A DNA stretch of 41,317 bases from Knoellia flava TL1. GTDB lineage: Bacteria; Actinomycetota; Actinomycetes; Actinomycetales; Dermatophilaceae. The stretch is from NCBI RefSeq assembly GCF_000768675.1, contig NZ_AVPI01000032.1, forward strand, positions 1-41,317, read 5' to 3'. Position numbers and translations under genes: made by a program. Under the pieces are notes generated by a model that saw nothing but the letters and a program-made list of their open reading frames with translations, was not told the DNA's origin and did no database searches. Shown in pieces: positions 199 to 40,706 of the stretch (its first letter is position 1; every line of letters starts with the position of its first letter).

Positions 199-1109
199 CC
201 CGCGACCTCCTCGACGCCGGGCAGGCCGAAGTGCTCGTCGCCGACCGGCTCGACGAGCCCGTCCTCGACGAGCCCGGCCAGGCACCGGTCGACCTGCTGC
301 TCGTCCCGACCGGGAGCAAGCGCCTCGCGCAGCACTGGTCCCGGGCTCTCGCGCAGCGCCTGGACGATGACCCCGCGCACCTGCCGGTCGGTGCCGTGCC
401 ACTTCTGTCCTCGCCGCGGAGGGCCGTCGTATGCCGGCCGCCCACCGAGCACCCACGCGCACCTGCCGACGACCGGGCAGTCGTCGCACCGCGGGCTGCG
501 GGCGGTGCAGACGAGCGCGCCGAGCTCCATGACGGCGACGTTCCACGTGGCGGCGTCCTCATCGTCGACGGGCAGGAGGTCGGCGGCGAGCGCCACTTCG
601 GCCCGCGTCATCGACGGCGCCGCCTGGGCCACGCCGCTGACCGCCCGCGCCTGGACGCGGCGGACGTTGGTGTCGACGACGACAGACCGGTCCCCGAAGG
701 CGAAGGCGGCGACGGCCGCCGCGGTGTAGTCGCCGATGCCGGGCAGTGCCCTCAGATCGGCCTCGTGGCGCGGCACCTCCCCATCATGCCGCTCGGTGAT
801 GACGACCGCGGCCTCGTGCAGGCGCAGCGCGCGGCGGGGGTAGCCGAGCCGGCCCCAGGCCCGCACGACCTCGCCGGGCGACTCGGCGGCGAGTTGCGCC
901 GGGGTGGGCCAGCGCTCCATCCACTGGCGCCAGATCGGTTCGACCCGGCCCAGCGGCGTCTGCTGCGACATGACCTCGGAGAGAAGGACGCCCCACGGCG
1001 AGCACGACGGCTCGCGCCACGGCAGCGGCCGGGAGTTGACGGCATACCAGTCGAGGACCGCGCCGTGCAGGGCGGCGAGGTCGGTCGCGGAGGGACGCAC
1101 GGCGCTCAC
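195..1109 (-). CDS. mutY: A/G-specific adenine glycosylase MutY
   Basis: Base-excision repair glycosylase that removes adenine mispaired with 8-oxoguanine. The 304-aa product has the family hallmarks in order: catalytic Glu45 in LLSEVMSQQT, the helix-hairpin-helix LPGIGDYTA (about 122-130), catalytic Asp146 in VVVDTNVRRV, and the [4Fe-4S] ligands C201-x6-C208-x2-C211-x5-C217. About 85 residues follow the cluster; this is short for MutY and leaves little room for the C-terminal NUDIX-like 8-oxoG recognition domain of E. coli MutY. Start is GTG at 1109, 15 bases after the disA stop, so co-transcription with disA and radA is likely. The 3' end overlaps the next gene by four bases. Confidence 0.95.
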   Translation of the reverse strand: MSAVRPSATDLAALHGAVLDWYAVNSRPLPWREPSCSPWGVLLSEVMSQQTPLGRVEPIWRQWMERWPTPAQLAAESPGEVVRAWGRLGYPRRALRLHEAAVVITERHDGEVPRHEADLRALPGIGDYTAAAVAAFAFGDRSVVVDTNVRRVQARAVSGVAQAAPSMTRAEVALAADLLPVDDEDAATWNVAVMELGALVCTARSPRCDDCPVVGRCAWVLGGRPAYDGPPRRGQKWHGTDRQVRGVIVQALRESPGPVLREALAPGRDEQQVDRCLAGLVEDGLVEPVGDEHFGLPGVEEVAG

Positions 1110-1124
1110 GGTGCCCGGCCCGGG

Positions 1125-2207
1125 TCAGACGTAGCGCTCGAGGATGCTGCTCTCCGCGAGTCGCGACAGGCCCTCGCGGACGAGCCGCGCACGGCCCTCG
1201 CCGACGCCCTCGACACTCATGAGGTCGTCGACACCGGCGGCGAGGAGCTTCTGGAGGCTGCCGAAGTGCTCGACGAGGCGGTCGACGATCGCGCCCGGGA
1301 GGCGGGGGACCTTGCTGAGCATGCGGTAGCCGAGCGGGCTCACCGAGGAGTCGAGCGCGTCACCGGACACGATGAAGCCGAGCGCCTTGGCGCCGGCGGA
1401 CGGGTCGAGCAGCTCGGTGGCGTCGATGTCGGTGAGGTTGGCGGTCGCCTGCGCCAGGTCGTGCTCGCCGCGCGACTCGTGCAGGTAGTCGCGGATGACG
1501 AGGCCGAGGTCGTCGGAGAGACCGCCGGTGAGCTCCTCCAGCTGGAGGCTGAGCAGGCGGCCGTCGGTGCCGAGCTGGAGGACGTAGTCGCCGATCTCGT
1601 CCTTGATCCGGCGCACCATCTCGAGGCGCTGGAGGACGTTGGCGACGTCGCGGACGGTGACGAGGTCCTCGATCTCGAGCGCGGAGAGGGTGCCGGTGAC
1701 CTCGTCGAGGCGCTGCTTGTAGCGCTCGAGGGTCTGCAGCGCCTGGTTGGCGCGGGAGAGGATCGCGCTCGAGTCCTCGAGGACGAAGCGGGACTCGCCG
1801 ACATAGAGGGCGACGATCCGCATCGACTGGCTCACCGAGACGACGGGGAAGCCGGTCTGCTTCGCGACCCGCTCCGCGGTGCGGTGGCGGGTGCCGGACT
1901 CGCTCGTCTCGATGGTGGCGTCAGGCACGAGCTGGGTCGCGGCGCGCAGGATCTTGGTGACGTCGCGGTCGCAGACGATGGCGCCATCCATCTTGGCCAG
2001 CTCGCGCAGGCGGGTGGCCGAGAACTCGACGTCGAGCGGGAAGCCGCCGGTCGCGATGGCGTCGACCGTGCGGTCCGTGCCGAGGACGATGAGGGCTCCG
2101 GTGCGTCCGCGAAGGATGCGTTCGAGGCCGTCACGCAGCTCGGTGCCGGGTGCGACGGCAGCGAGCGTCGTGCGCATCAACTCGTCCTCGTGCAGCGGCG
2201 TGGCCAC
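1125..2207 (-). CDS. disA: Diadenylate cyclase / DNA-integrity scanning protein DisA
   Basis: Octameric enzyme that condenses two ATP into c-di-AMP and is inhibited by branched DNA. The 360 aa match the usual length. The N-terminal DAC domain shows D74-G75-A76 (MDGAIVCDRD) and the GTRHRT motif at 105-110, both active-site signatures. A helical linker follows, and the C-terminal helix-hairpin-helix region ends with SVEGVGEGRARLVREGL, the DNA-binding part. GTG start at 2207, with a purine-rich GGAGGGAAG ribosome-binding site just upstream. It lies downstream of radA in the same orientation, the classical radA-disA pairing, but separated by a 181-base gap holding palindromic repeats, so it may have its own promoter or a processing signal. 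Confidence 0.97.
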   Translation of the reverse strand: MATPLHEDELMRTTLAAVAPGTELRDGLERILRGRTGALIVLGTDRTVDAIATGGFPLDVEFSATRLRELAKMDGAIVCDRDVTKILRAATQLVPDATIETSESGTRHRTAERVAKQTGFPVVSVSQSMRIVALYVGESRFVLEDSSAILSRANQALQTLERYKQRLDEVTGTLSALEIEDLVTVRDVANVLQRLEMVRRIKDEIGDYVLQLGTDGRLLSLQLEELTGGLSDDLGLVIRDYLHESRGEHDLAQATANLTDIDATELLDPSAGAKALGFIVSGDALDSSVSPLGYRMLSKVPRLPGAIVDRLVEHFGSLQKLLAAGVDDLMSVEGVGEGRARLVREGLSRLAESSILERYV

Positions 2208-2290
2208 GTGCTTCCCTCCAGTCGTCGCAGGTCAGGTCTCCCTGACCCGATGGCGAGTCTAACGGCGTCGGGCCGAGCTCCCCACGATCC

Positions 2291-2388: not shown

Positions 2389-3774
2389 TCAGCCGACGGG
2401 CGTCACGGAGAGCTGGACCGCCTCGAGGACGCTGCCCACCTCGATGACGCGCAGCCCGTCGGGAACCGGGCCTCCCCCGACGACGCCCGGGGGCACGATC
2501 GCCGTGGTGAAGCCCAGCCGCGAGGCTTCGGCGAGCCGGCGGTGGGCGCCGGTCACCGGGCGCAGCTCACCGGCGAGCCCGACCTCCCCGAACGCGACGG
2601 TGCCCGGCGGGAGGGGCTGGTCGTTGATCGCGCTGGCGAGGGCGAGCGTGACGGCGAGGTCAGAGGCCGGCTCGGTGATGCGCACCCCGCCCACGGTCGA
2701 CGCGAACACGTCCTTGCGCCCGATGGGCGCACGGGCGCGGGTGCCGAGCACCGCGAGGATCATGCCGACCCGCGCGGAGTCCAGGCCGCTCGTCGCCCGC
2801 CGCGGGTTGGGCACCTCGCTCTGGTCGACGAGCGCCTGCACCTCGGTGACGAGCGGGCGGCGGCCCTCGAGCGTCACCGTGACGCACGTGCCGGGAACGG
2901 CTGCGGTGCGGTTGGAGAGGAAGAGCCCGCTCGGGTCGGTGAGGCCGGTGATGCCGACGTCGGACAGGTCGAAGCAACCGACCTCGTCGGTGGGGCCGTA
3001 GCGGTTCTTCACCGCCCGGACGAGCCGCAGGCGACTGTGCCGGTCGCCCTCGAACTGGACGACGACATCGACGAGGTGCTCGAGGACCCGCGGGCCGGCG
3101 ATCGAGCCGTCCTTGGTGACGTGGCCGACGAGCAGGGTCGCGATGCCCCGGGACTTGGCGGTGGCGATGATGCTCGCCGCGACCTCGCGAACCTGCGAGA
3201 CGTTGCCCGCGGAGCCGTCGACCTCGGCGCTGCTGATCGTCTGCACCGAGTCGACGACGAGGAGGTCGGGCGCGACCTGGTCGATCTGGCCGAGGACGGT
3301 GGCGAGGTCGGTCTCGGACGCGAGGTAGAGGGTGCGTGCCATCGCCTCGATGCGCTCGGCCCGGCTGCGCACCTGCGCTGCCGACTCCTCGCCGCTGACG
3401 TAGAGGACGCGTCGCTCGGCACCCGGCTCGCCACCACGCGCAGCGCGGCCGGCGACGTCGAGGAGCAGGGTCGACTTGCCGATGCCGGGCTCGCCGGCGA
3501 CGAGGACCACGGCCCCGGGCACGAGCCCGCCACCGAGGACGCGGTCGAACTCGGGCACACCGGTGCCGCGAGCCTCGGCCCGGCTGGAGTCGACTTCACC
3601 GATGGGCACCGCCGGGCGCTCGACGCTCTTGACGGCGGTCGTGCGCGCGCTCACCGCACCGACCTCGGTCACCGATCCCCACGCCTGGCACTCGCCGCAG
3701 CGGCCCACCCACTTGACGGTCGTCCACCCGCACTCCGTGCACCGGTATGCCGGTCGCGCGCCCTTCGCTGCCAT
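2389..3774 (-). CDS. radA: DNA repair protein RadA (Sms)
   Basis: RecA-like ATPase/helicase that drives branch migration during recombination. The 461-aa product begins with the diagnostic zinc finger C12-x2-C15 ... C26-x2-C29 (RCTECGW, GRCGECQ). Walker A GEPGIGKST is at about 94-102. The RadA-specific KNRxG motif is present as KNRYG, followed by the Lon-protease-like C-terminal domain (VGMILAVLGTRARAPIGRKD region). I chose ATG 3774; a TTG three codons upstream (3783) is in frame but would fall almost on the end of the preceding MFS gene. It is followed by disA, mutY and the edge gene, all in one direction. The word GTATGCCG lies in codons for Pro-Ala-Tyr near residue 9 and imposes a GCA Ala codon. 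Confidence 0.96.
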   Translation of the reverse strand: MAAKGARPAYRCTECGWTTVKWVGRCGECQAWGSVTEVGAVSARTTAVKSVERPAVPIGEVDSSRAEARGTGVPEFDRVLGGGLVPGAVVLVAGEPGIGKSTLLLDVAGRAARGGEPGAERRVLYVSGEESAAQVRSRAERIEAMARTLYLASETDLATVLGQIDQVAPDLLVVDSVQTISSAEVDGSAGNVSQVREVAASIIATAKSRGIATLLVGHVTKDGSIAGPRVLEHLVDVVVQFEGDRHSRLRLVRAVKNRYGPTDEVGCFDLSDVGITGLTDPSGLFLSNRTAAVPGTCVTVTLEGRRPLVTEVQALVDQSEVPNPRRATSGLDSARVGMILAVLGTRARAPIGRKDVFASTVGGVRITEPASDLAVTLALASAINDQPLPPGTVAFGEVGLAGELRPVTGAHRRLAEASRLGFTTAIVPPGVVGGGPVPDGLRVIEVGSVLEAVQLSVTPVG

Positions 3775-3789: not shown

Positions 3790-4944
3790 TCAGGGCACCG
3801 ACACCGGCTCGGCGACGCCCCGGGCGGCGTGGCCGGCGGCGAGGGCGAGCGAGAGCCCGGCGGCCGCCAGCCAGAGGACGGCCGGCCCACGGTCGAGCAG
3901 CGGGGCCGACACGAGTGGGGCGACGACGGTGGCCACGCCCCACGAGAGCCCGAAGATCGTCATGACCGCGGCGCCGAGGCCCGGGCCACCCATGCGGGCG
4001 GCCGTCGCCTGGTAGGTGCCGAGCAGGAACGCCCCGCTCGCGCCCTCGAGGACGGCACCGGCGACGAGCCCGGTGACCGAGCCCGTCGCCCACAACCCGA
4101 GGCCCGCGGCGAGGACGAGGTGACCGACCACGAGGGCTGTGACGGCCGGCATACGGGTCTCGACGCGGGCGAGGAGCCGCTGCGCGCCGATCGCCGAGGC
4201 GGCCGCGGCGGCGAGCAGCCAGCCGGTCATCGACGTCGGGTGGCCGGCGCGGTCGACGGCCAGCGGAAGCATGAAGACGATGACCATGACGAGGGTCGCG
4301 TGGACCGTGCCCACCCCGGTCCACGCGAGCAGCCGCGGGGTGAGGGCCGAGCGCCACGGCGACGGGTGCCGCTCCGCGTGCGCCGACGGGAGCAGGACGA
4401 GGGCGGCGACCGCCGCGAGCGCGCTCGAGACGGCGTCGCACACGAAGATCGCCGAGACGCCCCAGCGCCCGAGCAGCGCCGCGAGCAGGCCGGAGACGAC
4501 ACCGGCGACGGCGAGGGTCGACCACAGCAGCGCGAAGGCCGACGCCTGCCGTGACGGCTCGATGGTCTCGGCGATGACGGCCTGCGTCGCGGGCTCGACG
4601 ATCTCGTAGGCGAGCCCGAGCGCGAGGACCGCCGCGACGACGACGGGGACGGAGTCGCCGAGCGCGATCGCGAGCAGCGCGACGGCACCGGCGAGGAGCC
4701 CGCCGGCGATCGTCCAGCGCGCTCCGACCCGGGTGGCGAAGACGCCGCCGAGGATCCGGCTCGGGACGGTGCAGGCACCGAAGACGGCGAGGACGACCCC
4801 GACGGCTGACAGCGACATCCCGAGGTCACGGGCGAGCCGCAGCCCGAGGAAGCTCATCCCGAACCCGCCGAGTCGGTTGACGACCCGCACGGCGACGACG
4901 GCGTGCAGGACGGAGCTCGGCTGGGTCAGGGGCACGGCCGACAC
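3790..4944 (-). CDS. Major facilitator superfamily transporter
   Basis: Integral membrane protein of about 384 aa with some twelve hydrophobic segments, consistent with a single MFS domain. The loop between helices 2 and 3 (VPSRILGGVFATRVGARW) resembles the MFS motif A region (GxLaDrxGrR). Substrate cannot be told from sequence; drug or metabolite efflux is the usual default for such small MFS proteins. The start is uncertain: in-frame candidates are TTG 4965, GTG 4944 and GTG 4935. I take 4944 because 4965 lies directly against the upstream terminator hairpin. The stop is 15 bases before radA, so the two may be co-transcribed. It is isolated from the ribosomal operon by the terminator at 4970-5004. 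Confidence 0.85.
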   Translation of the reverse strand: MSAVPLTQPSSVLHAVVAVRVVNRLGGFGMSFLGLRLARDLGMSLSAVGVVLAVFGACTVPSRILGGVFATRVGARWTIAGGLLAGAVALLAIALGDSVPVVVAAVLALGLAYEIVEPATQAVIAETIEPSRQASAFALLWSTLAVAGVVSGLLAALLGRWGVSAIFVCDAVSSALAAVAALVLLPSAHAERHPSPWRSALTPRLLAWTGVGTVHATLVMVIVFMLPLAVDRAGHPTSMTGWLLAAAAASAIGAQRLLARVETRMPAVTALVVGHLVLAAGLGLWATGSVTGLVAGAVLEGASGAFLLGTYQATAARMGGPGLGAAVMTIFGLSWGVATVVAPLVSAPLLDRGPAVLWLAAAGLSLALAAGHAARGVAEPVSVP

Positions 4945-4969
4945 CGTATGCCGTCGGCCGGACAACGCG

Positions 4970-6861: not shown

Positions 6862-6945
6862 GTATGCATCGCTGCCGACACCGCCGTGGAGCTGTCCACA
6901 GGGCACAAGGCAACCGTGCAAGGGTACCGGCTGCACGGCATACGG

Positions 6946-8160
6946 CTAAATCCGGCGCGGGTCCTCGGAAGTGGCGGACTGCCACGCGCGCACGGCGAGC
7001 CAGGCGACGGCGGCGACCCGCCCGAGGAGGGCGACGGCATACCAGCCCGCGGGGAGTGAGCGGTCGGGATCGGAGAGCCCGCCGAGGTAGAGCCAGACGG
7101 CGACGAAGTGCACCGCCTCCGCGAGCGCCCAGACGAGGTGGTCGCGCCACCGCAGCCCGGCGAGCGCGACGAGCGGCACGAGCCAGAGCGAGGCCTGCAC
7201 CGGGAAGCTCTTGCCGGTGACGAGGACGACGGCGACGACGACGAGGGCGGCGGCGCCGATGCGGGGCACGCTCGGCGAGCCGAGGACGAGCAGCGCACCG
7301 AGGCCCACGGCGACGACGACGCCGAGGACGGCCACCGCCGTGAGGACCCCTGCGGACCACGGGCTGCCGGAGAGGGTCGGGACGTACCAGACCGAGCCGA
7401 GCCCGGCGAGGCTGTCGGCCCACAGGCCCCACGAACGGGTGAGGAGCACCGGCCGGACCAGGAGCAGCGGCACGGCGACGACCGCGACGGCCGTCAGCGC
7501 GCCGGCAGCGACCCGGACGAGCTCGCGCTCGCGCCCCGTGCGCCACGCGAGGACCGCGACGACGACGAGCAGCAGACCGGGGTAGGTGCGGGCGAGGAAC
7601 CCGGCCCCGAGGAGGGCGCCGGCCAGCGCCGGATGTCGGCGCGACCAGGCCCACAGCCCACCCGTCGCCAGCGTGACGCCGAGGAGGTCCGGCGAGAGGA
7701 GCAGCGTGAGCGCAGCGACGGGCGCGAGGACGACGTGGTGCGCCCCGAGTGCGCCGCGCGGCCCCGCGTCGCGCACCCACCAGCCGATGAGGACGAGCGC
7801 GACCAGCGACAGCAGCGCCCAGACGCCGAGGACCCAGCGCTGGGTCGCGAGCGGGTCGCCGCCGGGGCCAAGGCCCGCGACCGTCGAGACGAGGGCCGAC
7901 GTGAGCGGCGGGTGGTCGAGCGGGACGTCACCGCGCAGCCAGGCCGCGAGCCCGCCGGAGGCTCCGGTCGTCTGCGTCGAGACGGCGAGGTCGGAGTAGC
8001 AGAACCGCCAGAACGGCTCCTGGCCTCCCCAGCCGCGGTCGAGGCACGGCGCCTGCTTCCACAACGACGCGAGCACCGGCAGCGCTGCGAGCAGCGCCAC
8101 CGGTGCGAACGCGGCGGTGGGTCCCCCGGGACCCGCCCGGTCGGGGACGGGCGAGGTCAC
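6946..8160 (-). CDS. Polytopic GT-C glycosyltransferase, GT87/DUF2029 type
   Basis: 404-aa membrane protein with roughly ten hydrophobic helices. An early luminal loop (KQAPCLDRGWGGQEPFWRFC, about 35-55) carries acidic residues and two cysteines where GT-C polyprenyl-phosphate sugar transferases hold their catalytic Asp. The downstream loop PLDHPPLTSA and the cytoplasmic ARTYPG segment are typical of this family. It probably transfers a sugar from a polyprenyl-phosphate donor to an envelope acceptor; donor and acceptor are unknown. GTG start at 8160 lies two bases after the ponA-like stop, so the two genes are co-expressed. The same neighbour pair occurs in mycobacteria (ponA1-Rv0051). A 138-base gap separates it from rpsF. 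Confidence 0.85.
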   Translation of the reverse strand: MTSPVPDRAGPGGPTAAFAPVALLAALPVLASLWKQAPCLDRGWGGQEPFWRFCYSDLAVSTQTTGASGGLAAWLRGDVPLDHPPLTSALVSTVAGLGPGGDPLATQRWVLGVWALLSLVALVLIGWWVRDAGPRGALGAHHVVLAPVAALTLLLSPDLLGVTLATGGLWAWSRRHPALAGALLGAGFLARTYPGLLLVVVAVLAWRTGRERELVRVAAGALTAVAVVAVPLLLVRPVLLTRSWGLWADSLAGLGSVWYVPTLSGSPWSAGVLTAVAVLGVVVAVGLGALLVLGSPSVPRIGAAALVVVAVVLVTGKSFPVQASLWLVPLVALAGLRWRDHLVWALAEAVHFVAVWLYLGGLSDPDRSLPAGWYAVALLGRVAAVAWLAVRAWQSATSEDPRRI

Positions 8161-8162
8161 GC

Positions 8163-10373
8163 TCAGCCGCCGCCCCCTGCCCCCGTCGTGGGCGTCGGGT
8201 CGGGGAAGGGCAGCGTGATCGACGGCTTCGGACCCTTGGTCTTGGTCGGCTTCGGCGTCTCCGTGGGAGTCGGCTCCGCGGACGGCGTCGTGGGCGTCGG
8301 CTCCGGCGTCGGCTCCGGCGTCCGCTCGGGCTCACGCGTGCGCGTCGGCTCCTGCGTCCGGGTGGGCTGCTGGGTGCGCTTCGGTGCGGCGTTCTTGTTG
8401 ATGTATGCCGGCTCCGGGAACTTCAGCTTCTCCATCCCGTCGGTCGCCGCGCGCATGTAGTCGGTCCAGATGCGCACCGGGATCGTGCCACCGGTGATCG
8501 ACCCCCAGCCGGGGACGTCGTCCATCTGGTTCTCCTCCTTGATGGACCCGTCACCCTTGTAGAGGCCGACGGCCGTGGCGAGCTGCGGGGTGAACCCGTC
8601 GAACCAGGCCGAGTAGTTGTCGCTCGACGTGCCGGTCTTGCCGGCGGCCTCGCGGTTGAGCCGCTCGCCGGCGTACTCGCCGCTGCCCTTCTCGATGACC
8701 TGCTGCATCGAGTAGACGACGTCCGAGACGAGGTCCTGGTCGAAGACGCGGGTTGTCCTGGGCTGGGCCTTGTAGTCGAAGGCGCCACTGGTGGACGTCA
8801 CCGACTTGACGTAGTAGGGGGTGGCGCGCACCCCCTTGGCGGCGAGGGTGGCGTAGGCGTTGGCCATGTCGATGACCTTGACGCTGTCGCTGCCGAGCAC
8901 GTTGGCGTAGTTGGGGTTGAGCTTGGTCGTGATGCCGGCCTGCTTCGCCGCGGCCGCCGTCTTCTGCGGCGTCGCGAGGATGTTGAGCTGGGCGAAGACG
9001 GTGTTGACCGAGTCCGCCGTCGCCTCGGGCACGGTGACCCGGCCGTAGTCGCGGTCGTTGAAGTTGCGCACCCCGCCGCGACGGTTGAAGTCGGTCGCCC
9101 CGGCCGGGTTCTCGAACTCGTCGAAGTACTGCGGGCTGTTGCCGTCGAAGGACTGGCGGATGCTGAGGTCTCCGCTCTGCAGGGCGGCGATGAGGGTGAA
9201 GATCTTGAAGACGGAGCCGGCCTGCATCGTCGCGTCGGTGGCGGTGTTGAACTGGTTCTTGGCGTAGTCGCTGCCGCCGTAGAGCGCCTCGACGGCGCCG
9301 TCGCCCGGCTTGACCGAGGCGAGGCCGACGTTGATGCCCTTGATCCCCTTCATCCGGTCGGCGATCGACTTCACCGCGGCGGCCTGCTTCTTCTTGTCGA
9401 TCGTCGTGACGATCCGCAGGCCACCGGTGGAGATGTCCCCTTCGTCGACCTTGACCTTCTTGAGGAGCTCGTCCTTGACGAGCTGGACGAGGTAGCCGTT
9501 GGTGCCGCCCACGGACGGGGGCCGGTAGGGCGCGAACTGCTTGTCCGTCGGGAAGGTGGCGGCAGCGCGCTGCTCCGGGCTGAGCCAGCCCTGTTCCTCC
9601 ATCGCGTCGAGGATGTAGGCGGAGCGGGTCTGGGCGTTCTGCTTCTGCTTCTCGCCGAGGCGGGGGTCGTAGAAGGACGGGCCGCGGATGGCGGAGGCGA
9701 GGAAGGCACCCTCGGCCGGGGTGAGCTTGGAGACGTCCTTGTTGAAGTAGGCCTTGGACGCCGTCTGGATGCCGTAGGCGCCGCGTCCGTAGTAGATCGT
9801 GTTGAGGTAGTTCTCGAGGATCTCCTCCTTGGACTGCTGGCCGTCGATCTTGACCGAGATGAGGATCTCCCGGGCCTTGCGCGACAGCGTGCGGTCCTGG
9901 CTGAGGAAGTAGTTCTTGACGTACTGCTGGGTGATCGTCGAACCACCCTGGGTGGCCTCACCACCCTTGATCGCGACCCACACGGCGCGCGCGATGCCGG
10001 TCGGGGAGATGCCGTTGTTCTCGTAGAAGTTGCGGTCCTCGGCTGCGAGCAACGCCCGCTGCACGTGCACGGGCACCTGCTCCAGCTTGACCGACTCGCG
10101 GTTGTACTCGGACACGCGCCCGATCTCGGACTTGCCGTCGGCGTAGTAGATAACCGAGGTCTGCGCCGTCGCCACCTCGTTGGGCTCGGGCACGTCCGTC
10201 ATGGCGTATGCGATCCCCACCCCGGCGACGCCGAGGACGAAGAGCCCCAGCATCGTGTAGAGGAGGCGGCGCGGCCAGCGGCGCTGGGGTCCGCCACGGG
10301 AGCGGCCGGCGCGGCCGGTGCGTCCGTCGGTGCGGCGACGTGCCTCTGCGCGCGAACGGGGTGCGGTGCTCAT
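8163..10373 (-). CDS. Class A penicillin-binding protein (PonA-type)
   Basis: Bifunctional peptidoglycan glycosyltransferase/transpeptidase, 736 aa from ATG 10373 (an in-frame ATG two codons upstream is possible; the GAAAG spacing favours 10373). A basic cytoplasmic tail is followed by one TM (about 37-58). The GT51 domain has catalytic Glu112 in AEDRNFY and the GGSTITQQYVKN motif. The transpeptidase domain has S387-V-F-K390, S455-V-N457 and K579-T-G. The last 90 residues are a disordered extracellular tail of Thr/Pro/Arg/Glu repeats (TRTQEPTRTREPERTPEP). It is the first gene before the GT87 protein and is divergent from padR, with several palindromes in the shared 5' region. Confidence 0.95.
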   Translation of the reverse strand: MSTAPRSRAEARRRTDGRTGRAGRSRGGPQRRWPRRLLYTMLGLFVLGVAGVGIAYAMTDVPEPNEVATAQTSVIYYADGKSEIGRVSEYNRESVKLEQVPVHVQRALLAAEDRNFYENNGISPTGIARAVWVAIKGGEATQGGSTITQQYVKNYFLSQDRTLSRKAREILISVKIDGQQSKEEILENYLNTIYYGRGAYGIQTASKAYFNKDVSKLTPAEGAFLASAIRGPSFYDPRLGEKQKQNAQTRSAYILDAMEEQGWLSPEQRAAATFPTDKQFAPYRPPSVGGTNGYLVQLVKDELLKKVKVDEGDISTGGLRIVTTIDKKKQAAAVKSIADRMKGIKGINVGLASVKPGDGAVEALYGGSDYAKNQFNTATDATMQAGSVFKIFTLIAALQSGDLSIRQSFDGNSPQYFDEFENPAGATDFNRRGGVRNFNDRDYGRVTVPEATADSVNTVFAQLNILATPQKTAAAAKQAGITTKLNPNYANVLGSDSVKVIDMANAYATLAAKGVRATPYYVKSVTSTSGAFDYKAQPRTTRVFDQDLVSDVVYSMQQVIEKGSGEYAGERLNREAAGKTGTSSDNYSAWFDGFTPQLATAVGLYKGDGSIKEENQMDDVPGWGSITGGTIPVRIWTDYMRAATDGMEKLKFPEPAYINKNAAPKRTQQPTRTQEPTRTREPERTPEPTPEPTPTTPSAEPTPTETPKPTKTKGPKPSITLPFPDPTPTTGAGGGG

Positions 10374-11293: not shown

Positions 11294-11385
11294 CCCGGCC
11301 ACAGACCACCTCCCGCCCACAGAACGACCGGGCAGGCCGGCATACGCCGGTCGACACCGGCACACCACCGAAGGGAAACACCACC

Positions 11386-12477: not shown

Positions 12478-12518
12478 GCGCAGCCCCTCGCCTCTCCGTT
12501 GGTCGAGAGGAGACAGGA

Positions 12519-12549
12519 CCCCGCTTCCGTATGCCGGAGGCGGGGTTTT
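12519..12549 (+). terminator. Rho-independent terminator of ino1
   Basis: Stem CCCCGCTTCC (12519-12528) with GGAGGCGGGG (12536-12545), then TTTT. The 7-base loop is exactly GTATGCC, the over-represented word of this window. Confidence 0.9.
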
Positions 12550-12580
12550 GCCTTCTTTCGACGGCTTTCGTGGCCGGGCG

Positions 12581-13441: not shown

Positions 13442-14181
13442 GGCGCGAGGTAGACGATCGCGTTCGTGGTGGTCGTGCATCGGACGGGTTCGCCGCCGTC
13501 GCAGGAGAGCGAGTACCACTTCTTCGTCACCGGGCTGTAGGCCCGCAGGCTCGTGGCGTCACCCGGGGAACCCGCCTGGCGGTAGGCGTCGCGCACCGAT
13601 GCCGCGAACTCGCAGGACGTGCGCTCGGTCCCTGCGTATGCCGTCGCGACGGCGTCACTTCCGCTCGTCGAGCAGCGACGGGCCTCGGCCGGGAGCGACG
13701 AGGACGCGGAGGGCGACACCTCGGGTGAGCTCGTCGTCGTGGGGACGCTCGTGGTCGGGGCGGGCTGGGCGTCACCGGTCTCCTCGGCCGCCTGGCTCGA
13801 CGACGAGGCGGTGGCCGGGGTCGTCGGCTGCGGGTCGTCGGAGCCGACGAGCCGGGTGAGCGCGAAGGTCCCGATGAGCGTCAGCACCGCGAAGGTCGCG
13901 ACCATCGCGAGGAGGCTGCTGCGTGAGGGGCCGGGGCGCGGGTCGTCGCCGTCGTCCGGCTCCGCTCCCGCAGGGATCGGTGTCGCCCGCGGCACGACAG
14001 GTGCGGCCTCCTCGTGGGAGGCGGAGCGATGCCACGCCGCCTGAGGGGGCGTCGGCCGCTGAGTTCCGGCCGGGAGGTCGGTGCCGACACCGAGGACCGA
14101 CCCGAGCTCGACCCGGGCGCCGCACTGCGAGCAGAACGCGGCGTCGACCGGCAGGTCGGCAGCGCAGGTCCGGCAGTGCAT
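13438..14181 (-). CDS. Zinc-ribbon, single-TM protein with Cys-rich exported domain (paralogue B)
   Basis: 247 aa with the same plan as its downstream neighbour: zinc ribbon C3-x2-C6 ... C17-x2-C20 (CRTCAADLPVDAAFCSQC), disordered linker, TM about 88-110, Ser/Thr/Pro stalk, and the four-Cys domain RCSTSGSDAVATAY, TSCEF, VRDAYRQAG, PVTKKWYSLSC, RCTT. The two C-terminal domains align without gaps over most of their length, whereas linkers and TMs differ in sequence. ATG 14181 lies 154 bases downstream of the M23 peptidase stop, with an intervening hairpin that probably ends that transcript. Function unknown. Confidence 0.8.
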   Translation of the reverse strand: MHCRTCAADLPVDAAFCSQCGARVELGSVLGVGTDLPAGTQRPTPPQAAWHRSASHEEAAPVVPRATPIPAGAEPDDGDDPRPGPSRSSLLAMVATFAVLTLIGTFALTRLVGSDDPQPTTPATASSSSQAAEETGDAQPAPTTSVPTTTSSPEVSPSASSSLPAEARRCSTSGSDAVATAYAGTERTSCEFAASVRDAYRQAGSPGDATSLRAYSPVTKKWYSLSCDGGEPVRCTTTTNAIVYLAP

Positions 14182-14270
14182 GGGACGTCCTCACGTGGGG
14201 CTGGGATCAGCCAGCCACGGTAACGGCAGGACCCCCTCCTGCACGAACCGCGGGACGGTCCCCGAGACGG

Positions 14271-14313
14271 GGGCGGACGGCATACGGAGGTCGTTCCCGT
14301 ATGCCGTCCGCCC
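14271..14313 (-). terminator. Perfect 17-bp inverted repeat after the M23 gene
   Basis: Arms GGGCGGACGGCATACGG (14271-14287) and CCGTATGCCGTCCGCCC (14297-14313) around a 9-base loop, 22 bases past the M23 stop. Both arms contain GTATGCCGTCCGC, so the terminator is built from a pair of the over-represented word. The remainder of 14182-14335 shows nothing else. Confidence 0.75.
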
Positions 14314-14335
14314 ACTTCACGCGCGAACGCCGAGG

Positions 14336-21729: not shown

Positions 21730-21797
21730 GACGAACCCTCACCGCTCACCCCAGTGGGCGAGACTCCCCTTCCCTCGCTCGAACCATGCCACAGGTC

Positions 21798-21830
21798 CCC
21801 CGGGCAGGACATGGGGAGAACTGCCCGGGG
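21798..21830 (-). terminator. Hairpin between the two giant genes
   Basis: Perfect 10-base arms CCCCGGGCAG (21798-21807) and CTGCCCGGGG (21821-21830), 13-base loop, 11 bases after the stop of paralogue 2. No U-tract follows, so it may attenuate or stabilise rather than fully terminate before paralogue 1. Confidence 0.6.
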
Positions 21831-21841
21831 CCCTCGGTTGC

Positions 21842-28249: not shown

Positions 28250-30660
28250 GCCGATCCCTCGGCGCCGCGGGTGCGGCGCAGCGACGGCAGGGAGGGCAGG
28301 CTGCGGCGGGTGCGCGTGCGGCGGTCGCGCTCGAGCAGCGGCCGGACGTCGACGTCGGAGCGGATCCGGCGCCAGCGTGAGACGGTGCCGCGAAGCTCCC
28401 TGCGGACCCCGTCCGCGTCGGCGAGCAGGGCGGTCGCGACCTCGGCCTCGGGGTCGCCGGGGCCGAAGACGGCGGCATTGGCGCCGACCGCGATCGGCTC
28501 GGCGGAGGCTGACGCGGACGCGGGGAAGGCACGGGCCTGCTCGAGGCGGGTGGCGCCGCGCGGGACGGCCACGCCGAGGCTGCGGGCGTCGCTCACGAGG
28601 TCACGCCACACCCACGCCGGTCGCGAGGCGAGCGCACCCGTCGTCGCGTGGCGCCGACGCCGCCGCGTCTTGAGCCAGCGGATGAGCGCGTAGGCCCCGA
28701 GCAGCAGCAGGACCGGGACGACGAGCCCGAGGACGAGGATGCGCAGCCAGAGCGGCCACGACCCGATGTCGAGCGGGTTGCGCTTCTTCTTCTTGATGTC
28801 GGTGGCGTTCTGCGCCTGGTCCGGGCCCTGGAGGACCGAGGGTGGGTTGACGCCGGCCGGTGGCGGAACCTGGGCGCCGACCTTCTGCTCCTCGGACTTG
28901 AGCTGCTGCTCGTTGGGCTTCTTGTTGCGGTCGGGGAGGAAGGTCGAGGGCAGCAGCGCGTGCCACGTGCCGTCGTCGACCTGGACCTCGACCCAGGCGT
29001 GGACGTCCTTGCCCTTGATGGCGGTGCCGGACTCCGGGATGGCGCCCATGACGACCCGGGTCGGGATGCCCAGGCGGTTGCCGACGAGGGCGAGGGTGGC
29101 GGCGTACTGCTCGTCGTTGCCGGCCAGCTGGGTCGATCCGACGAACCGGCTGAGCCGGCTGAGCCCGTGACCGGGAAGGTAGACCTTCTCGTAGGAGTTC
29201 GCGGTGCCGCCGTCGGTGTAGGCGCCGTCGGACGTCATCGTCTTCGCGACGGCGACGAACTTCTCCCACGGGCTGCCGGCGCGGCCGCTCCAGGCATCGA
29301 GCTTGGCATCGAGGAAGCTCGTGTCCTCGGCGACCTGCGCCCCGCTCGCGACCTTGAGGTCCTTGGGCAGGGTCGTCGAGACCGCGTCGTCGAGGACGGT
29401 CTGGAAGGTGTAGGTGTCCCCAGGCCGGACGAGGGCGGGGACGACGGCGGTCTCGGTCGCGGTGTTGAGCCAGAGGGCATCGGCGAGGTCGTCGCCCCGC
29501 GGCCCGTCGAAACGGACGCCGGTCGTCGACCCGGCCAGCGGCAACCATGCCCCCTCGTAGCCACCCTCGGGGACGGTCACCTTCGCCGTCACGGGCGTGC
29601 CGGTGACACGAGGGGCGATGCGCGTGCCCACCTGCTGGAAGGGCGTGCCGTCGGTGGCGCGGTCGGCGGCACCCCAGACGAGGCCGTCGTAGCTGTCGAG
29701 GGTCGCGAACCGGATCGGCGTGCCGGCGGGAAGGCCCGTGACCCGGAGGATCTCGGTGTCGTAGAGCTCGGCCGAGTTGGGCTCGGTGTAGCGGCGGAAC
29801 CCCGAGAGCGGGCTCATGAACTGGGCGACGTCGTAGGGCGGGGTGAGCTGGTCGCGCACGACGGTGCGCGCCTCGCTCGACCCGGCGCCCGGGAGGACCT
29901 GTCCGAGGAAGGTGCCCGCGAGCGCGGCGACGGTGAGGAGCGCGACGCCGGTGACGGCCCGGGCTCGCTGGCCGGCGCCGTTCTGCAGGCTCGCGCGGGT
30001 GCGGGCGGCCCGGGCGACGAGCCAGAGGATGAGGACAAGAGCGAAGACGACGCCCTGGACGAGCCTCGCCGCCGGCTGTTGCGTGCCGAGCGCGATCGTC
30101 CCCACGAGGAGCACGAGCGGGGCGACGGCCGCGCCGCCGACGCTGCGGAACCGGCGGGCGACGCCGTAGGTCGCGGCGGCCCCGAGGAGGCCGGTGACCC
30201 ATGGCAGGGCGACGAGCGGGCCGCGGGCGTCGACCGGCGGCAGGAGCGTGAGCCACTCCTTCCACCCGGTGACCGGGGTGACGGCGAGGTCGGTGAGGGT
30301 CTGCAGGCTCGGGATGACGCCACCGATGAGGTCGCCGCGCACCGCGACGGGACCACCGAGGACGAAGTGGAGGGCGGCGAGGACGAGCACCGTCGCGAGG
30401 AGCGGCCACGAGCGCGTGACCGCGACGTGCGCGACCACGGTGCCGAGGACGACGCCCACTGCCGCGGCGAGGATCCACTCCCAGCCGATGAAGCCCGTGC
30501 GGAAGCCGACGAGGGCGATCGTCACGAGGACGAGGGAGAAGGCGAGGTCGACGAGGACGTCGCGGGACGGCATACCGGGGAGGATGAGGCGCGAGGACGA
30601 GGGGCGCGCGTTGCGCTCGTCGGCCCGGGCACGGCGGCTCGCGGTGGCGTCGATGCTCAT
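28246..30660 (-). CDS. Transglutaminase-like (TgpA-type) membrane protein with degenerate active site
   Basis: 804 aa from ATG 30660. About seven N-terminal TM helices (33-255), an exported region (260-620) with a transglutaminase core, another TM (about 635-655), and a cytoplasmic basic C-terminal domain. The core is recognisable (GNDEQYAATLALVGNRLGIPTRVV; KDVHAWVEVQVDDGTWHALLPST), but the catalytic Cys of the usual GxCxxFA is Asp516, and the Asp of W-x-x-x-DPT is Leu570; only His554 remains. Cross-linking or protease activity is therefore unlikely; a scaffold or chaperone role for the surface proteins is inferred. It lies 13 bases after DUF58 and overlaps giant paralogue 2. The longer upstream extension of the frame overlaps DUF58 and is discarded. 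Confidence 0.9.
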   Translation of the reverse strand: MSIDATASRRARADERNARPSSSRLILPGMPSRDVLVDLAFSLVLVTIALVGFRTGFIGWEWILAAAVGVVLGTVVAHVAVTRSWPLLATVLVLAALHFVLGGPVAVRGDLIGGVIPSLQTLTDLAVTPVTGWKEWLTLLPPVDARGPLVALPWVTGLLGAAATYGVARRFRSVGGAAVAPLVLLVGTIALGTQQPAARLVQGVVFALVLILWLVARAARTRASLQNGAGQRARAVTGVALLTVAALAGTFLGQVLPGAGSSEARTVVRDQLTPPYDVAQFMSPLSGFRRYTEPNSAELYDTEILRVTGLPAGTPIRFATLDSYDGLVWGAADRATDGTPFQQVGTRIAPRVTGTPVTAKVTVPEGGYEGAWLPLAGSTTGVRFDGPRGDDLADALWLNTATETAVVPALVRPGDTYTFQTVLDDAVSTTLPKDLKVASGAQVAEDTSFLDAKLDAWSGRAGSPWEKFVAVAKTMTSDGAYTDGGTANSYEKVYLPGHGLSRLSRFVGSTQLAGNDEQYAATLALVGNRLGIPTRVVMGAIPESGTAIKGKDVHAWVEVQVDDGTWHALLPSTFLPDRNKKPNEQQLKSEEQKVGAQVPPPAGVNPPSVLQGPDQAQNATDIKKKKRNPLDIGSWPLWLRILVLGLVVPVLLLLGAYALIRWLKTRRRRRHATTGALASRPAWVWRDLVSDARSLGVAVPRGATRLEQARAFPASASASAEPIAVGANAAVFGPGDPEAEVATALLADADGVRRELRGTVSRWRRIRSDVDVRPLLERDRRTRTRRSLPSLPSLRRTRGAEGSA

Positions 30661-33323: not shown

Positions 33324-33576
33324 GGGTCGGGGTCCTCTCGTCGCTGTGGCGGGGCGGACCGAGGTGCCGATCCCGTGCGCGTTGCTCGGCTCGGATGGCG
33401 CCACCCCCCGTGGGTGCTTCAGGCACCGCGACGATCCCCGGCGTGACAAGAATTTCCGCGTATGCCGTGACGCACCTTACCGGCTGCCGGCCCCCTTCCC
33501 CATGGGTGCCCATACCTACTCTTTGCCTACCGGAAGGTAGTTGAAACCGCACCTCTCGCGGTCCCCACCCCTCCTC

Positions 33577-33700: not shown

Positions 33701-34750
33701 TCACCACATCCTCTGGGCGAGTTCTTTCGTGAGCATGCGACGCCATGTGGCCAGGTGCGCCTCCACCGCACAGTCCCCGAGGCTGCCGCCGCAACACGAG
33801 CAGAGGAGCTCGGCGTCGATCGTGGGACTGCACTGCGCGGCTGCCATGAACCGGGCATGGATGTCGGAACCGTCGACAGCCTCATGCGGAGTCCAGCGCA
33901 CGACCTCGAAACCCACGTCCGTGAGACCGGCCTGCCTCTGCTCCTCGGCCATGAGCCGCCGACGGACGGACTCCTCGGAGGTGCCGTCGAGGAGGTACTT
34001 GCCCAGTCCATCGGCCTCACCTGCGACGCCGTGGTCGGGCCAGAGGACGTCGGGTCTCGCGACGAACCTGCCCGCCCGGTCGAGGACGACCACTTGGGGA
34101 ACACCGACGGGCAGTCCCCACCGATGAGCGGCCCACGCCGAGGCCGACTCGAGCCAGTTCTCGCGCCGACCGTCCGCAAGGAACAGCACGGCGTTCGCGT
34201 TCGTCACCTTGGGCCATCGGCGCTGATGGCATCGCATCGCCCACAGGTCGGCGTGCGTCACCATGCCCGACCGCAGTGCCCCGTCGGCGATTGCGAGGGC
34301 ATCCCGCGGGTGCAGCTCCCTGGCGCAGTCAATGACGGTGCGCGCCGCGATGAAGCGCGGCGCGCCGTTCTGGATGACGATGTGCTCGTAGGGCGTGGCG
34401 CCGCGGTGGAGCCTGCGCCACGTGTCGCCGCGACTGGTGCGGACGTCGTCGAGGACGGTCATCGTCACGTGGTCCGGCGGATGCGTGGGATGAGGCAGCC
34501 CCAACAGTGCGGCAGCGCTGGCGTGGCTGACGATCGCGTCCTTGGTCAGCCGTACGGCCGCCTCAGCCATTGCCCGGTGGGCCTCCCAAGAGGTGAGGAG
34601 GGACCATGCGGGCTGCACGGCATACAGGTTCTTCGAGACGAGGCCGAGCTCGCCCGAGAGGACCGCACGGTTCATGGTGCGGAGCGAGAGGCCCGCCGCG
34701 ACGACATCCGGGCGCACGAAGGGCTGAGGAAGGACCGCGAATCTGCTCAT
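33701..34750 (-). CDS. AbiEi-antitoxin-like / DUF559-like protein
   Basis: 349 aa from ATG 34750. The N-terminus (about 1-120; MSRFAVLPQPFVRPDVVAAG, HASAAALLGLP) resembles the winged-helix AbiEi antitoxin domain. The C-terminus (about 215-310) resembles the DUF559/Vsr-like PD-(D/E)xK fold: WLESASAWAAHRWGLP, VARPDVLWPDHGVAGEADGLGKY, and the closing GFEVVRWT. No AbiEii nucleotidyltransferase toxin is adjacent, so it is an orphan; such solitary proteins are common in actinobacteria and of unknown role. It is bordered by related repeats in opposite orientation. The frame stays open upstream through the 33-bp array, but I set the start at MSRF because the conserved domain begins there. Confidence 0.75.
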   Translation of the reverse strand: MSRFAVLPQPFVRPDVVAAGLSLRTMNRAVLSGELGLVSKNLYAVQPAWSLLTSWEAHRAMAEAAVRLTKDAIVSHASAAALLGLPHPTHPPDHVTMTVLDDVRTSRGDTWRRLHRGATPYEHIVIQNGAPRFIAARTVIDCARELHPRDALAIADGALRSGMVTHADLWAMRCHQRRWPKVTNANAVLFLADGRRENWLESASAWAAHRWGLPVGVPQVVVLDRAGRFVARPDVLWPDHGVAGEADGLGKYLLDGTSEESVRRRLMAEEQRQAGLTDVGFEVVRWTPHEAVDGSDIHARFMAAAQCSPTIDAELLCSCCGGSLGDCAVEAHLATWRRMLTKELAQRMW

Positions 34751-38270: not shown

Positions 38271-38518
38271 GTCTCTCCTCCAGGAACCGGGCAGGGGGCC
38301 CGGGCGTGCGTGCGTCTTTGCACGAACTTCTGTGCATCCTGCCGCGAGGCACCGACAGAGGGGAAGAACTTTGCGCCGAGTGGTCACGACGGGTCCCCGG
38401 GATGGCCCGGAAGAGACCCCCGTATGCCGTCCGCGCAGGTCAGGGCGTCCCGACGCGACCCACTCCCCCGCGCCTACGGCCCCACTCGTCCTGCGCTCGC
38501 TGGCTCCGGCGATCGTCG
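38271..38518. promoter_or_regulatory. Intergenic region upstream of the M6 protease
   Basis: No gene is visible on either strand. It contains an inverted repeat TGCAC-N8-GTGCA (38319-38323/38332-38336), about 50 bases before the protease start, and one GTATGCCGTCCGC word at 38422. It should carry the protease promoter; I see no convincing sigma-factor boxes. Confidence 0.35.
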
Positions 38519-39211
38519 TCAGTCGAGCAGGGCCAGGTCCGCCTCGGTCACCATGCGGGTCGAGAGCGCGTGCTCGACGAGCCGAGCCTTGCGGTTGCTC
38601 GCGAGCTTGCCGGGACCGCCGTGCAGCCCCCGCGTGCCGGCGTCGGCGAGCTTCTGGCAGACGTTGTCGAGCTTGCGGTTGAACTTCGTCGTCGTCCAAC
38701 CCAGCCGCTCCGCCGCCTGGGCGGAGGACGGGATCTGGCCCTGGCCGGCATACGAGGTCCGCAGGAAGCTCTCGCACAGCGCGACGACGAGGAGCTTCTG
38801 GTCGGGGGTCATCGAGACCCGGCCGACGGTCGTCTCGCCGGGCGAGTCCTCGGGCTCGGGCTCGGGGTCGTTCTCGATCGTCGTGAAGGTCGCGTCGTCG
38901 ACGGTGATGTCGAAGTCGTAGGTCGTGGGGCCCGCGGTGAACCACACCGTGAAGGCCTCGAGCGCGAGCGGGATCCGGGCACCCGGGTTGAGCCAGGCCT
39001 GGAAGAGGCCCTTGCGGTCGCCGACCGTGGCGGTGAGGGTCGAGCCGACGTTGGTGAGCCACCAGAGGTCGTGCTCGCGGTGGACCTGGAGGAAGACGCG
39101 GTGGAGGTAGGGGTTGTCGTCGATCTCGACGTCGGCGACGCGGCCGATCGTCAGCGGCGCGCCCTCCGGCGCGACGAACTCCTCACCGCAGAACTCCACG
39201 GTCACTGCCAT
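38519..39211 (-). CDS. FHA-domain protein with C-terminal winged-helix region
   Basis: 230 aa from ATG 39211, which has a strong AAGGAGGGTGA site overlapping the kinase stop. The N-terminal FHA fold (about 1-110) keeps the first motif (LTIGRVADVEI) but has LHRVF in place of SRxH and lacks the NG of STNGT, so phosphothreonine binding may be altered. An acidic linker (NDPEPEPEDSPGETTVGRVSM) contains a candidate phosphoacceptor, T128. The C-terminus (about 133-230; IPSSAQAAERLGWTTTKFNRKLDNVCQKL) looks like a winged-helix DNA- or protein-binding domain. It lies four bases after the kinase gene. A kinase-controlled regulator is the likely role. Its DNA target is unknown. Confidence 0.85.
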   Translation of the reverse strand: MAVTVEFCGEEFVAPEGAPLTIGRVADVEIDDNPYLHRVFLQVHREHDLWWLTNVGSTLTATVGDRKGLFQAWLNPGARIPLALEAFTVWFTAGPTTYDFDITVDDATFTTIENDPEPEPEDSPGETTVGRVSMTPDQKLLVVALCESFLRTSYAGQGQIPSSAQAAERLGWTTTKFNRKLDNVCQKLADAGTRGLHGGPGKLASNRKARLVEHALSTRMVTEADLALLD

Positions 39212-39215
39212 CGGG

Positions 39216-40706
39216 TCACCCTCCTTGGACGCACTTGATCGCCGAGTATGCCGATGTCGGGCCGGCCGCGCGGGCCACCGCCACCTGCGCACAGACGGAC
39301 TGGCCGGGCTTGGCCGTGACGCGGTGCGGCATCGCCTTGACCGTGGTCACCGTGGCGTCGGCCACCTGGGCCTCGCTGGGGGCGATGCGCATGCGGTAGT
39401 AGTCGCCCTTGCGGACGCCGGCGTACTGCCACGAGAAGACCGCGCCGCCGGCGATGCCCTGCCCGTCGATCGCCGGCTGCTCGGGGATGTCGACGACGGC
39501 ACCCCCACCTCCCTGGGTGACCGACGCCGTCGGGGCGTCGGTCGAGGCCTCGGTCGGCTCGTCGCCCCCGCGGAAGCCGATCGCCCAGACGAGGGCGCCG
39601 ACGAGGGCGACGAGCACGACCCCGACACCGGCGAGCAGGGCACCGCCGCTGATCGTCGTGGGCTGCGATCCGGCGTCGGCCTCCTCGTGGGCGGGACGGC
39701 TCGTCGAGGTCGTGGTCGGCGTGTAGGTCTGGGCCGAGGTGACCTTGGGCGCGCGGACGCTCGTGCGGTCGGGGTCGGTGTGCTCGGGCGCCGGCTGGCC
39801 GGTGCTGTCGGCGACCGTCGTGTGTCCCGACTCGTCGAGGACGACGATCGGAGTGCGGGCGAACCGCTGCTCCTGCTCGATGGCCTGGAGGCCACGGGCG
39901 AAGTCGATCGCCGTCTGGGGACGGGCGTCGGGCTTCTTGGCCATGGCGTGGCCGAGGAGCCGCTCGAGGCTCAGGGGGACGTCGGCGCGGCCGGTCTGCG
40001 GCACGGGGGTCGCGCGGATGCGGGGCATGAGCGCGTATGCCGAGTTGTCGCCTCCCGGTTGCTCGAACGGCGAGCGCCCCACGAGGAGGTGCCAGAGGGT
40101 CGCCGCGAGCGAGTAGACGTCGCTGCGGGCGTCGCCGTTGCTCTGGCCGTAGAGCACCTCGGGCGGGGACCACGGCACCGAGACGCCCACGTCCTCGTCG
40201 TGCTCGTCCTGCCCGACGGCGCGGCCGGCGATGCCGAAGTCGGTGAGCCCGGGGGCGCCGTACTGGCTGACGAGGACGTTGGCCGGCTTGATGTCACGGT
40301 GGACGATGCCGGCCCGGTGCGCGGTCTCGACGGCGCTGGCGAGCTGGATACCTGTGCGCAGCACCTCCTCGACGGTGAGCCGCTCCCGCTTGGCCCGGGT
40401 CGCGAGGTTGGGCGGCGGGTAGTACTTCATGACGAGGTAGGCGCCACCGTCGGCCAGCTGCTCGCTGCGGAAGACCTGGACGATGTAGGGGTGGTCCGCG
40501 AGCTGGGCCATGGTGTTGGCCTCCTCGACGAACTGCCGACGGATGGCCGGGGTCAGGCCGTCGCGCTTGAGGACCTTGACGGCGACGGGCATCCGCGGCA
40601 TCTGCTGTTCGTAGAGGAAGACGTCGGCATAGCCGCCCGAGCCGAGGGGCTGGCGGTAGACGAGGCCGGGGATCTCGGGCGCGGAGCCCGGGGCAGCTCG
40701 GGTCAC
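39216..40706 (-). CDS. Transmembrane Ser/Thr protein kinase (PknB-like)
   Basis: 496 aa. Hanks-type kinase domain (about 14-275): GSGGYADV loop, K44 in VAVKVL, HRDIKPAN (136-143), DFG (156-158), and SVPWSPPE in the activation segment where GTxxYxAPE is usual. A Thr/Pro-rich juxtamembrane stretch (about 290-350) contains HTTVADS and DRTSVRAP. One TM (about 356-377). The ~115-residue exported part (FSWQYAGVRKGDYYRMRIAP, SVCAQVAV) reads like a single FN3/Ig-type sandwich rather than PASTA repeats, so it probably does not sense muropeptides as PknB does. GTG start overlaps the stop of the upstream FHA gene (GTGA). No PP2C phosphatase is in the window. Confidence 0.95.
   Translation of the reverse strand: MTRAAPGSAPEIPGLVYRQPLGSGGYADVFLYEQQMPRMPVAVKVLKRDGLTPAIRRQFVEEANTMAQLADHPYIVQVFRSEQLADGGAYLVMKYYPPPNLATRAKRERLTVEEVLRTGIQLASAVETAHRAGIVHRDIKPANVLVSQYGAPGLTDFGIAGRAVGQDEHDEDVGVSVPWSPPEVLYGQSNGDARSDVYSLAATLWHLLVGRSPFEQPGGDNSAYALMPRIRATPVPQTGRADVPLSLERLLGHAMAKKPDARPQTAIDFARGLQAIEQEQRFARTPIVVLDESGHTTVADSTGQPAPEHTDPDRTSVRAPKVTSAQTYTPTTTSTSRPAHEEADAGSQPTTISGGALLAGVGVVLVALVGALVWAIGFRGGDEPTEASTDAPTASVTQGGGGAVVDIPEQPAIDGQGIAGGAVFSWQYAGVRKGDYYRMRIAPSEAQVADATVTTVKAMPHRVTAKPGQSVCAQVAVARAAGPTSAYSAIKCVQGG

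Follow-up and report, generated by a model that had tools for sequence, protein, structure and literature searches.

The 41,317-base stretch of Knoellia flava TL1 analysed here (the window, which is contig C32 of the organism's 3.56-Mb draft genome) raises the question of why a single eight-base word, GTATGCCG, should recur throughout it. The window holds 28 copies of this word, 15 on the + strand and 13 on the - strand, whereas dinucleotide shuffles of the same DNA predict 0.46, and none of 100 shuffles reached 28 copies. An earlier note on this DNA had counted 28 copies of the 7-mer GTATGCC in both orientations, each followed by G, and our recount agrees. Its hand estimate of about 4 chance copies of the 7-mer overshoots the 1.17 given by shuffling, and the excess is therefore greater than the note claimed. 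The note went too far in assigning almost every TATG or CATA tetramer to the word, because 28 of the 42 TATG tetramers (both strands) lie within it. The extended form that it described exists but belongs to a minority of copies, with GTATGCCGTC in 13 of the 28 and GTATGCCGTCCGC in 5. As set out below, GTATGCCG is quite probably a DNA uptake sequence (DUS), that is, a self tag preferred by a DNA receptor on the cell surface.

The excess extends to the whole draft genome (G000; other G numbers denote relatives' genomes). It contains 2541 copies of GTATGCCG (1268 + 1273), or about one per 1.4 kb, compared to 94 copies (44 + 50) of the reversed word, which served as a control. In a 436-kb sample of the genome, GTATGCCG ranks first among all 8-mers, with 310 copies observed against 10.2 expected from a codon-phase-aware second-order Markov model. 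The count that the earlier note had proposed thus gives an approximately 30-fold excess. The word is enriched in seven of seven contexts, namely six coding contexts and the DNA between genes; coding and intergenic assignments, here and below, come from a simple home-made gene caller and are approximate. The strict core comprises eight bases, beyond which flank preference fades quickly, and between genes K. flava favours the longer form C-GTATGCCG-TCCGCCC. The core is followed by T in 60% and C in 55% of copies, compared to 37% and 31% in Knoellia G003. Because the T and C preference is not found in G003, the letters shared with the Neisseria DUS (ATGCCGTC), which the note had put down to chance with a "perhaps", are probably a chance likeness.

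A short word can also be multiplied by a dispersed mobile repeat, such as repetitive extragenic palindromes (REP) or bacterial interspersed mosaic elements (BIME), or by codon-pair or amino-acid bias, and one relative (G023) does carry GTATGCCG within a longer repeat unit. In K. flava, however, the flanks vary beyond the core, and therefore the copies do not form one repeat family. The tyrosine codon TAT is used in 109 of 129 G-TAy-GCC-G contexts, but in 43 of 243 other Tyr-Ala pairs and 66 of 1880 tyrosine codons elsewhere in the genome. For the word read from the opposite strand, 82 of 127 CG-GCn-TAC contexts have the alanine codon GCA, which accounts for 4.6% of other alanine codons. Knoellia G003 has a higher background than the K. 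flava genome, with TAT shares of 94/103 in the word context versus 71/196 and 428/1667, and seven pooled genomes without the word make these word-context codon choices in 1 of 26 and 0 of 46 cases. Together, these results show that the DNA word itself is conserved through synonymous codon choice, rather than a protein or codon pattern. We rejected the codon-pair and repeat readings, both raised in the earlier note as possible explanations, because the flanks are variable, all seven contexts are enriched, and TAT and GCA are favoured solely where they build the word. We give such explanations practically no credence.

Conservation at orthologous sites points in the same direction. When the window was aligned to eight other Knoellia genomes, 93 of 142 site-genome pairs were identical across all eight bases; these pairs are not independent, since the genomes are related. 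Control 8-mers with three A/T were identical at frequencies of 0.34-0.46, depending on the genome, and a stricter set of 8-mers containing TAC or GTA at 0.42-0.60. The word is clearly better conserved than this stricter set in G003 (6/7 versus 0.51) and G006 (0.65 versus 0.42).

Several known classes of chromosomal signal could account for a dispersed word of this kind. Chi sites, FtsK-orienting polar sequences (KOPS), architecture-imparting sequences (AIMS) and the highly iterated palindrome HIP1 are all short, over-represented genomic words, but the first three are polar and HIP1 is palindromic, whereas GTATGCCG has neither polarity nor dyad. We scored polarity in twenty 20-kb samples of the complete genome of Knoellia G003, in which six DnaA boxes place the origin at the start of the sequence and the skew changes near 2.0 Mb. 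With the origin sample left out of the sum, 115 words fall on the leading strand and 115 on the lagging strand. This absence of replication polarity is evidence against Chi, KOPS and AIMS, and those readings were rejected on that basis. The arrangement of neighbouring words bears on the same question. Pairs closer than 60 bp are inverted in 20 of 24 cases (p 0.0015), with 8 of the 20 in coding or edge positions, and they can form hairpins. An inverted pair in the window (14262..14322) folds with -41.2 kcal/mol (z -6.41) on one strand and -42.3 kcal/mol (z -6.10) on the other, and a terminator-like hairpin at 12508..12560 reaches -34.6 kcal/mol (z -6.27). A Chi-like recombination signal for AdnAB or RecBCD, maintained because it stimulates repair, would be in keeping with the strong enrichment, as Chi sites are lineage-specific, over-represented words of 5-8 bp. 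Chi sites are directional, however, and inverted, hairpin-forming pairs are not known to be among their traits; we consider this explanation quite improbable.

Sites for nucleoid organisation or chromosome segregation, resembling KOPS, AIMS, matS or HIP1, would also be kept by selection, as might a target for DNA modification. The thousands of dispersed copies are compatible with such roles, and cyanobacterial HIP1 provides an example of an abundant word of unclear function. Both KOPS and AIMS favour one strand, and AIMS also become denser towards the terminus. In contrast, GTATGCCG shows no strand bias, and three G003 samples near the terminus contain 12, 12 and 4 words, compared to 8-21 in the four samples closest to the origin. 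The word is not palindromic, as HIP1 is, restriction targets are usually avoided by genomes, and additional assumptions would be needed to explain the dialects and the near-absence from an insert described below. A nucleoid or modification site is thus an unlikely explanation. We also considered a tag for DNA export or conjugal transfer, rather than uptake, similar to the clt sites of TraB. The FtsK-like TraB protein of Streptomyces reads 8-bp repeats, and similar sites occur in the chromosome, but TraB sites are few, clustered and directional, whereas GTATGCCG is present in thousands of unpolar copies. A role in transfer therefore appears very improbable.

One region of the K. flava genome is almost devoid of the word. 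This 27-kb desert on contig C1 (30.3-57.7 kb; G000:C1:30273-57739) contains a single copy of GTATGCCG. It is mostly low in G+C (63-67% from 30 to 55 kb), and it carries a transposase with rve domains that, on our reading of the sequence, is probably of IS3 type. The same insert includes an open frame of 1475 residues whose WD40-like matches are weak and fall under curated cut-offs.

The word is not confined to K. flava. Among 58 genomes, including that of K. flava itself, GTATGCCG is abundant in all nine from the genus and in many genera of the family, and in none of the 22 from other families. For a wider family sample of 159 genomes, we classed as high those with at least 200 words per Mb and twice the reversed-word count. 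By this definition, 84 genomes are high, 10 intermediate and 65 low. The figure of 84 is somewhat generous, because it still counts both genomes of genus g16 (G023 and G092) and three of genus g56 that have similarly raised reversed-word counts. By genus, 24 are uniformly high, 20 uniformly low, one intermediate and 8 mixed. G023 was dropped as an ordinary word-rich genome since its copies of the word are embedded in a longer repeat unit that is itself dispersed, with 13 of 21 copies intergenic; this is a different phenomenon with a common core. In a ComEC tree, the K. flava sequence falls within Knoellia and adjoins K. locipacati, and a scan of named genomes with a ComEC alignment gave Knoellia species and "Janibacter sp. 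HTCC2649" as the nearest. Four Phycicoccus genomes lack the word though their neighbours in the ComEC tree have it. G097 (genus g25) and G150 (genus g56) contain 19 and 37 words, and their congeners over 1000; these are losses or dialect switches, and useful for finding a receptor.

Some of the low genera carry instead a word that differs from GTATGCCG by one base, either GGATGCCG or GTACGNCG. In G033, GGATGCCG occurs 141 times in 140 kb against 13.1 expected, with enrichment in 7/7 contexts and 3949 copies genome-wide versus 289 of its reversed form. G024 has 3816 copies versus 392 reversed. The case of G009 (1336 versus 310, 5/7 contexts) is doubtful, because unrelated cases, for example G019 (827 versus 126), also reach such a ratio. 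GTACGNCG is found in G030 (6107 versus 755 reversed, 5/7 contexts) and in G031 (3371 versus 897, 6/7 contexts), where the last base is looser. As two outgroups have similar GTACGNCG ratios (G039, 2919 versus 823; G057, 3021 versus 976), the G031 dialect rests on the context analysis. A further word, GTATGNCG, is used by G011, G012 (Metallococcus), G034 and Flexivirga. At named loci, GTACGNCG appears 45 times in 22 kb of Allobranchiibius (reversed word, 4) and 24 times in Luteipulveratus (reversed word, 2). Both genera are placed among Flexivirga and Metallococcus in the ComEC tree, and this nesting of GTACGNCG genera among GTATGNCG genera indicates dialect switches inside the Dermacoccaceae. 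Across the dialects, positions 2, 4 and 6 vary while G1, A3, G5 and C7 are fixed, as is G8, though less strictly in G031. Samples of G014, G016, G017 and G035 (20-26 kb), G010 (40 kb), the Phycicoccus pool (89 kb), G018 and G022 showed no dialect. G055, from another family of the order, has 774 + 774 copies of GGATGCCG versus 97 + 87 reversed, a ratio above those of other outgroups, and possibly represents a dialect outside the family.

These traits together appear to resemble the uptake sequences of Neisseriaceae and Pasteurellaceae, as described in PMC3630211 and PMC12616744, above other known kinds of genomic word, because GTATGCCG combines strong enrichment, lack of polarity, inverted hairpin-forming pairs, codon-independent maintenance and family-wide dialects. 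Its density also falls in the range of about one per 1-2 kb that is characteristic of uptake sequences. Like the Neisseriaceae DUS, which is read by the minor pilin ComP, it is a short word found on both strands, within and between genes, with hairpin-forming inverted pairs and dialects that span a family around a fixed inner core (PMC3630211, PMC12616744). The differences are that its hosts are monoderm, high-G+C Actinomycetota, that the core is 8 bp rather than a 10-12-mer, and that Tad genes are present in place of PilM. The uptake signal sequences (USS) of Pasteurellaceae are likewise dispersed words whose dialects, Hin-USS and Apl-USS, are a few bases apart (PMC12616744), but they show no evident sequence relation to GTATGCCG and belong to another phylum and pilus type. 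Of the three functions suggested in the earlier note (an uptake, nucleoid or modification system), DNA uptake would thus seem to fit best. We judge it rather likely that Intrasporangiaceae, Ornithinimicrobiaceae and Dermacoccaceae possess a third, independently evolved self-tagging uptake system, in a monoderm Gram-positive phylum and with a component of a Tad/Flp-type pilus as reader. It would have at least four dialects (GTATGCCG, GTATGNCG, GGATGCCG and GTACGNCG) on a G-N-A-N-G-N-C-G frame, with losses and switches even within genera. Among the papers listed in our searches of an open-access library, we saw none that describes an uptake sequence from Actinobacteria (Actinomycetota); subscription papers and preprints lay outside this scope.

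The gene content of K. flava is consistent with natural transformation. The earlier note had suggested looking for com, pil and tad genes. The genome encodes ComEA (SLBB + HHH), ComEC and DprA together with a tad locus that includes an ATPase, a DUF4244 pilin-like protein and a Tad-domain protein. We also read a TadB-like protein in this locus, and a 109-residue protein with no Pfam match as putatively TadE-like. PilM (PF11104) is encoded in 0/9 genomes of the genus, so there is probably no type IVa pilus. In Micrococcus luteus, which is also an actinobacterium, transformation requires two tad clusters and comEC, and comEA accompanies comEC there (PMC4322843). Knoellia likewise has comEA and comEC, and its tad locus encodes the DUF4244 pilin-like protein and the Tad-domain protein. 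The term "uptake sequence" is absent from the main text of the M. luteus paper (PMC4322843). The Tad locus whose ATPase scores highest (contig C41 of the K. flava draft) was rejected as a required component, because G002 and G003 are word-rich and have no counterpart of the same score.

From these observations we infer a function of the word in uptake, Tad pili as the apparatus for that uptake, and the existence of a specific receptor. In the mechanism that we propose, duplex DNA bearing the word would be bound by a minor pilin of a Tad/Flp competence pilus or by some other protein at the cell surface. Pilus retraction would be followed by passage of one strand inward through ComEA and ComEC, and DprA and RecA would then recombine the incoming strand. 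DNA from kin, which bears the word, would be taken up and recombined more often, and the word would therefore spread and be kept on both strands, within and between genes. If the specificity of the receptor drifted, the genomic word would follow, giving rise to dialects.

A number of results weigh against GTATGCCG being an uptake sequence. The same com and tad genes are kept by relatives that do not have the word: ComEA, ComEC, DprA and Tad genes occur also in genera without it, ComEC is present in 57/58 surveyed genomes, G010 and G018 have both types of Tad locus and no word seen, and the Phycicoccus pool retains comEA and comEC with no clear word in 89 kb. In comparisons of genera with and without the word, no gene tracked its presence in surveys of ComEC, PilM, the T2SSE ATPase and TadE or in comparisons of tad and com loci. 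G003 has a second, M. luteus-like tad cluster that was not found in the K. flava draft, where two Tad ATPases score above the cut-off. Our searches of the open-access literature turned up no report of competence in Knoellia.

Other points on the same side come from the word itself. Its one-mismatch neighbours show no excess (263 versus 292 expected, an expectation inflated by the word itself), unlike those of the USS in Haemophilus influenzae. Conservation exceeds the TAC/GTA control marginally in G001 (0.57 versus 0.52) and G004 (0.54 versus 0.51). Close pairs (<60 bp) are no commoner than random (24 versus 23.5), and the scarcity of the word in foreign DNA is based on a single insert. Density in G000 is 1.35 per kb in intergenic DNA and 0.63 per kb in genes, an intergenic excess seen in that genome only, as G003 has 0.71 versus 0.62 per kb. 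Spacing speaks partly for an uptake sequence and partly against one. Over 260 kb of contig C1 including the desert, words are less evenly spaced than random (coefficient of variation 1.230 versus 0.990). When the desert is removed, the coefficient falls to 0.774 versus 0.99 and 0/3000 random sets are as even; if real and random sets each lose their two largest gaps, 1/3000 is. In seven other stretches of the K. flava genome, 16/3000 random sets are as even. The window alone is not significantly even (599/3000), and even spacing was not seen in the G003 samples (1518/3000). Evenness thus characterises the K. flava genome and is not established for the genus.

The positions of all words and hairpins in the window are listed in the table. 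Three other features of the window deserve mention. A stretch of approximately 80-90 bp at 2283-2373, between two called genes, matches many other places on both strands of the K. flava genome and related Knoellia genomes, and is a dispersed, probably palindromic repeat. Positions 15349-28249 hold two adjoining genes for giant proteins (~2100 aa; Big_9, cadherin-like and fn3 domains) next to a TgpA/transglutaminase gene. The gene at 35400-39062 encodes an Immune-inhibitor-A-like M6 metallopeptidase.

Table. Copies of GTATGCCG and associated hairpins in the window. The last column gives the number of aligned Knoellia genomes with an identical word over the number aligned at that site.
Feature	Position	Strand	Location or remark	Identical/aligned
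Word GTATGCCG	429..436	+	in gene	6/8
Word, GTATGCCGTC form	1040..1047	-	in gene	7/8
Word	3745..3752	+	intergenic	8/8
Word	4147..4154	-	in gene	3/4
Word, GTATGCCGTC form	4946..4953	+	intergenic	1/1
Word	6936..6943	-	intergenic	4/8
Word, GTATGCCGTC form	7035..7042	-	in gene	4/8
Word	8403..8410	+	in penicillin-binding protein gene	2/8
Word	11338..11345	-	intergenic	5/8
Terminator-like hairpin	12508..12560	+	word of 12529 straddles loop; TTTT run after G+C-rich arm	
Word in hairpin	12529..12536	+	intergenic	0/5
Word, GTATGCCGTC form	13636..13643	+	in gene	1/6
Inverted word pair forming long stem	14262..14322	not assigned	fold of both strands	
Word, GTATGCCGTCCGC form, left half of inverted pair	14278..14285	-	intergenic	1/1
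Word, GTATGCCGTCCGC form, right half of inverted pair	14299..14306	+	intergenic	no aligned Knoellia
Word, GTATGCCGTC form	17467..17474	-	in giant Ig-like protein gene	6/6
Word, GTATGCCGTCCGC form	17764..17771	+	in gene	5/6
Word	18987..18994	-	in gene	4/6
Word, GTATGCCGTCCGC form	19134..19141	+	in gene	2/6
Word	20917..20924	+	in gene	5/6
Word, GTATGCCGTC form	22727..22734	-	in gene	2/6
Word	26101..26108	-	in gene	6/6
Word, GTATGCCGTC form	26579..26586	+	in gene	6/6
Word, GTATGCCGTC form	30568..30575	-	in gene	5/5
Word	33460..33467	+	intergenic	3/4
Word	34618..34625	-	in gene	2/2
Word, GTATGCCGTCCGC form	38422..38429	+	intergenic per gene caller	1/1
Word	38746..38753	-	in gene	2/3
Word	39246..39253	+	in gene	0/3
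Word	40035..40042	+	in gene	2/3

Sequence-tagged DNA uptake is known from two Gram-negative families, and GTATGCCG, if it is indeed an uptake sequence, would add a new and distant case. A third family, in another phylum, with no outer membrane and probably no type IVa pili, would mean that sequence-tagged sex evolved independently. The dialects would then offer an independent set in which the receptor could be sought by coevolution. Many environmental actinobacteria would be selectively transformable, and adding the word to donor DNA suggests itself as a laboratory tool.

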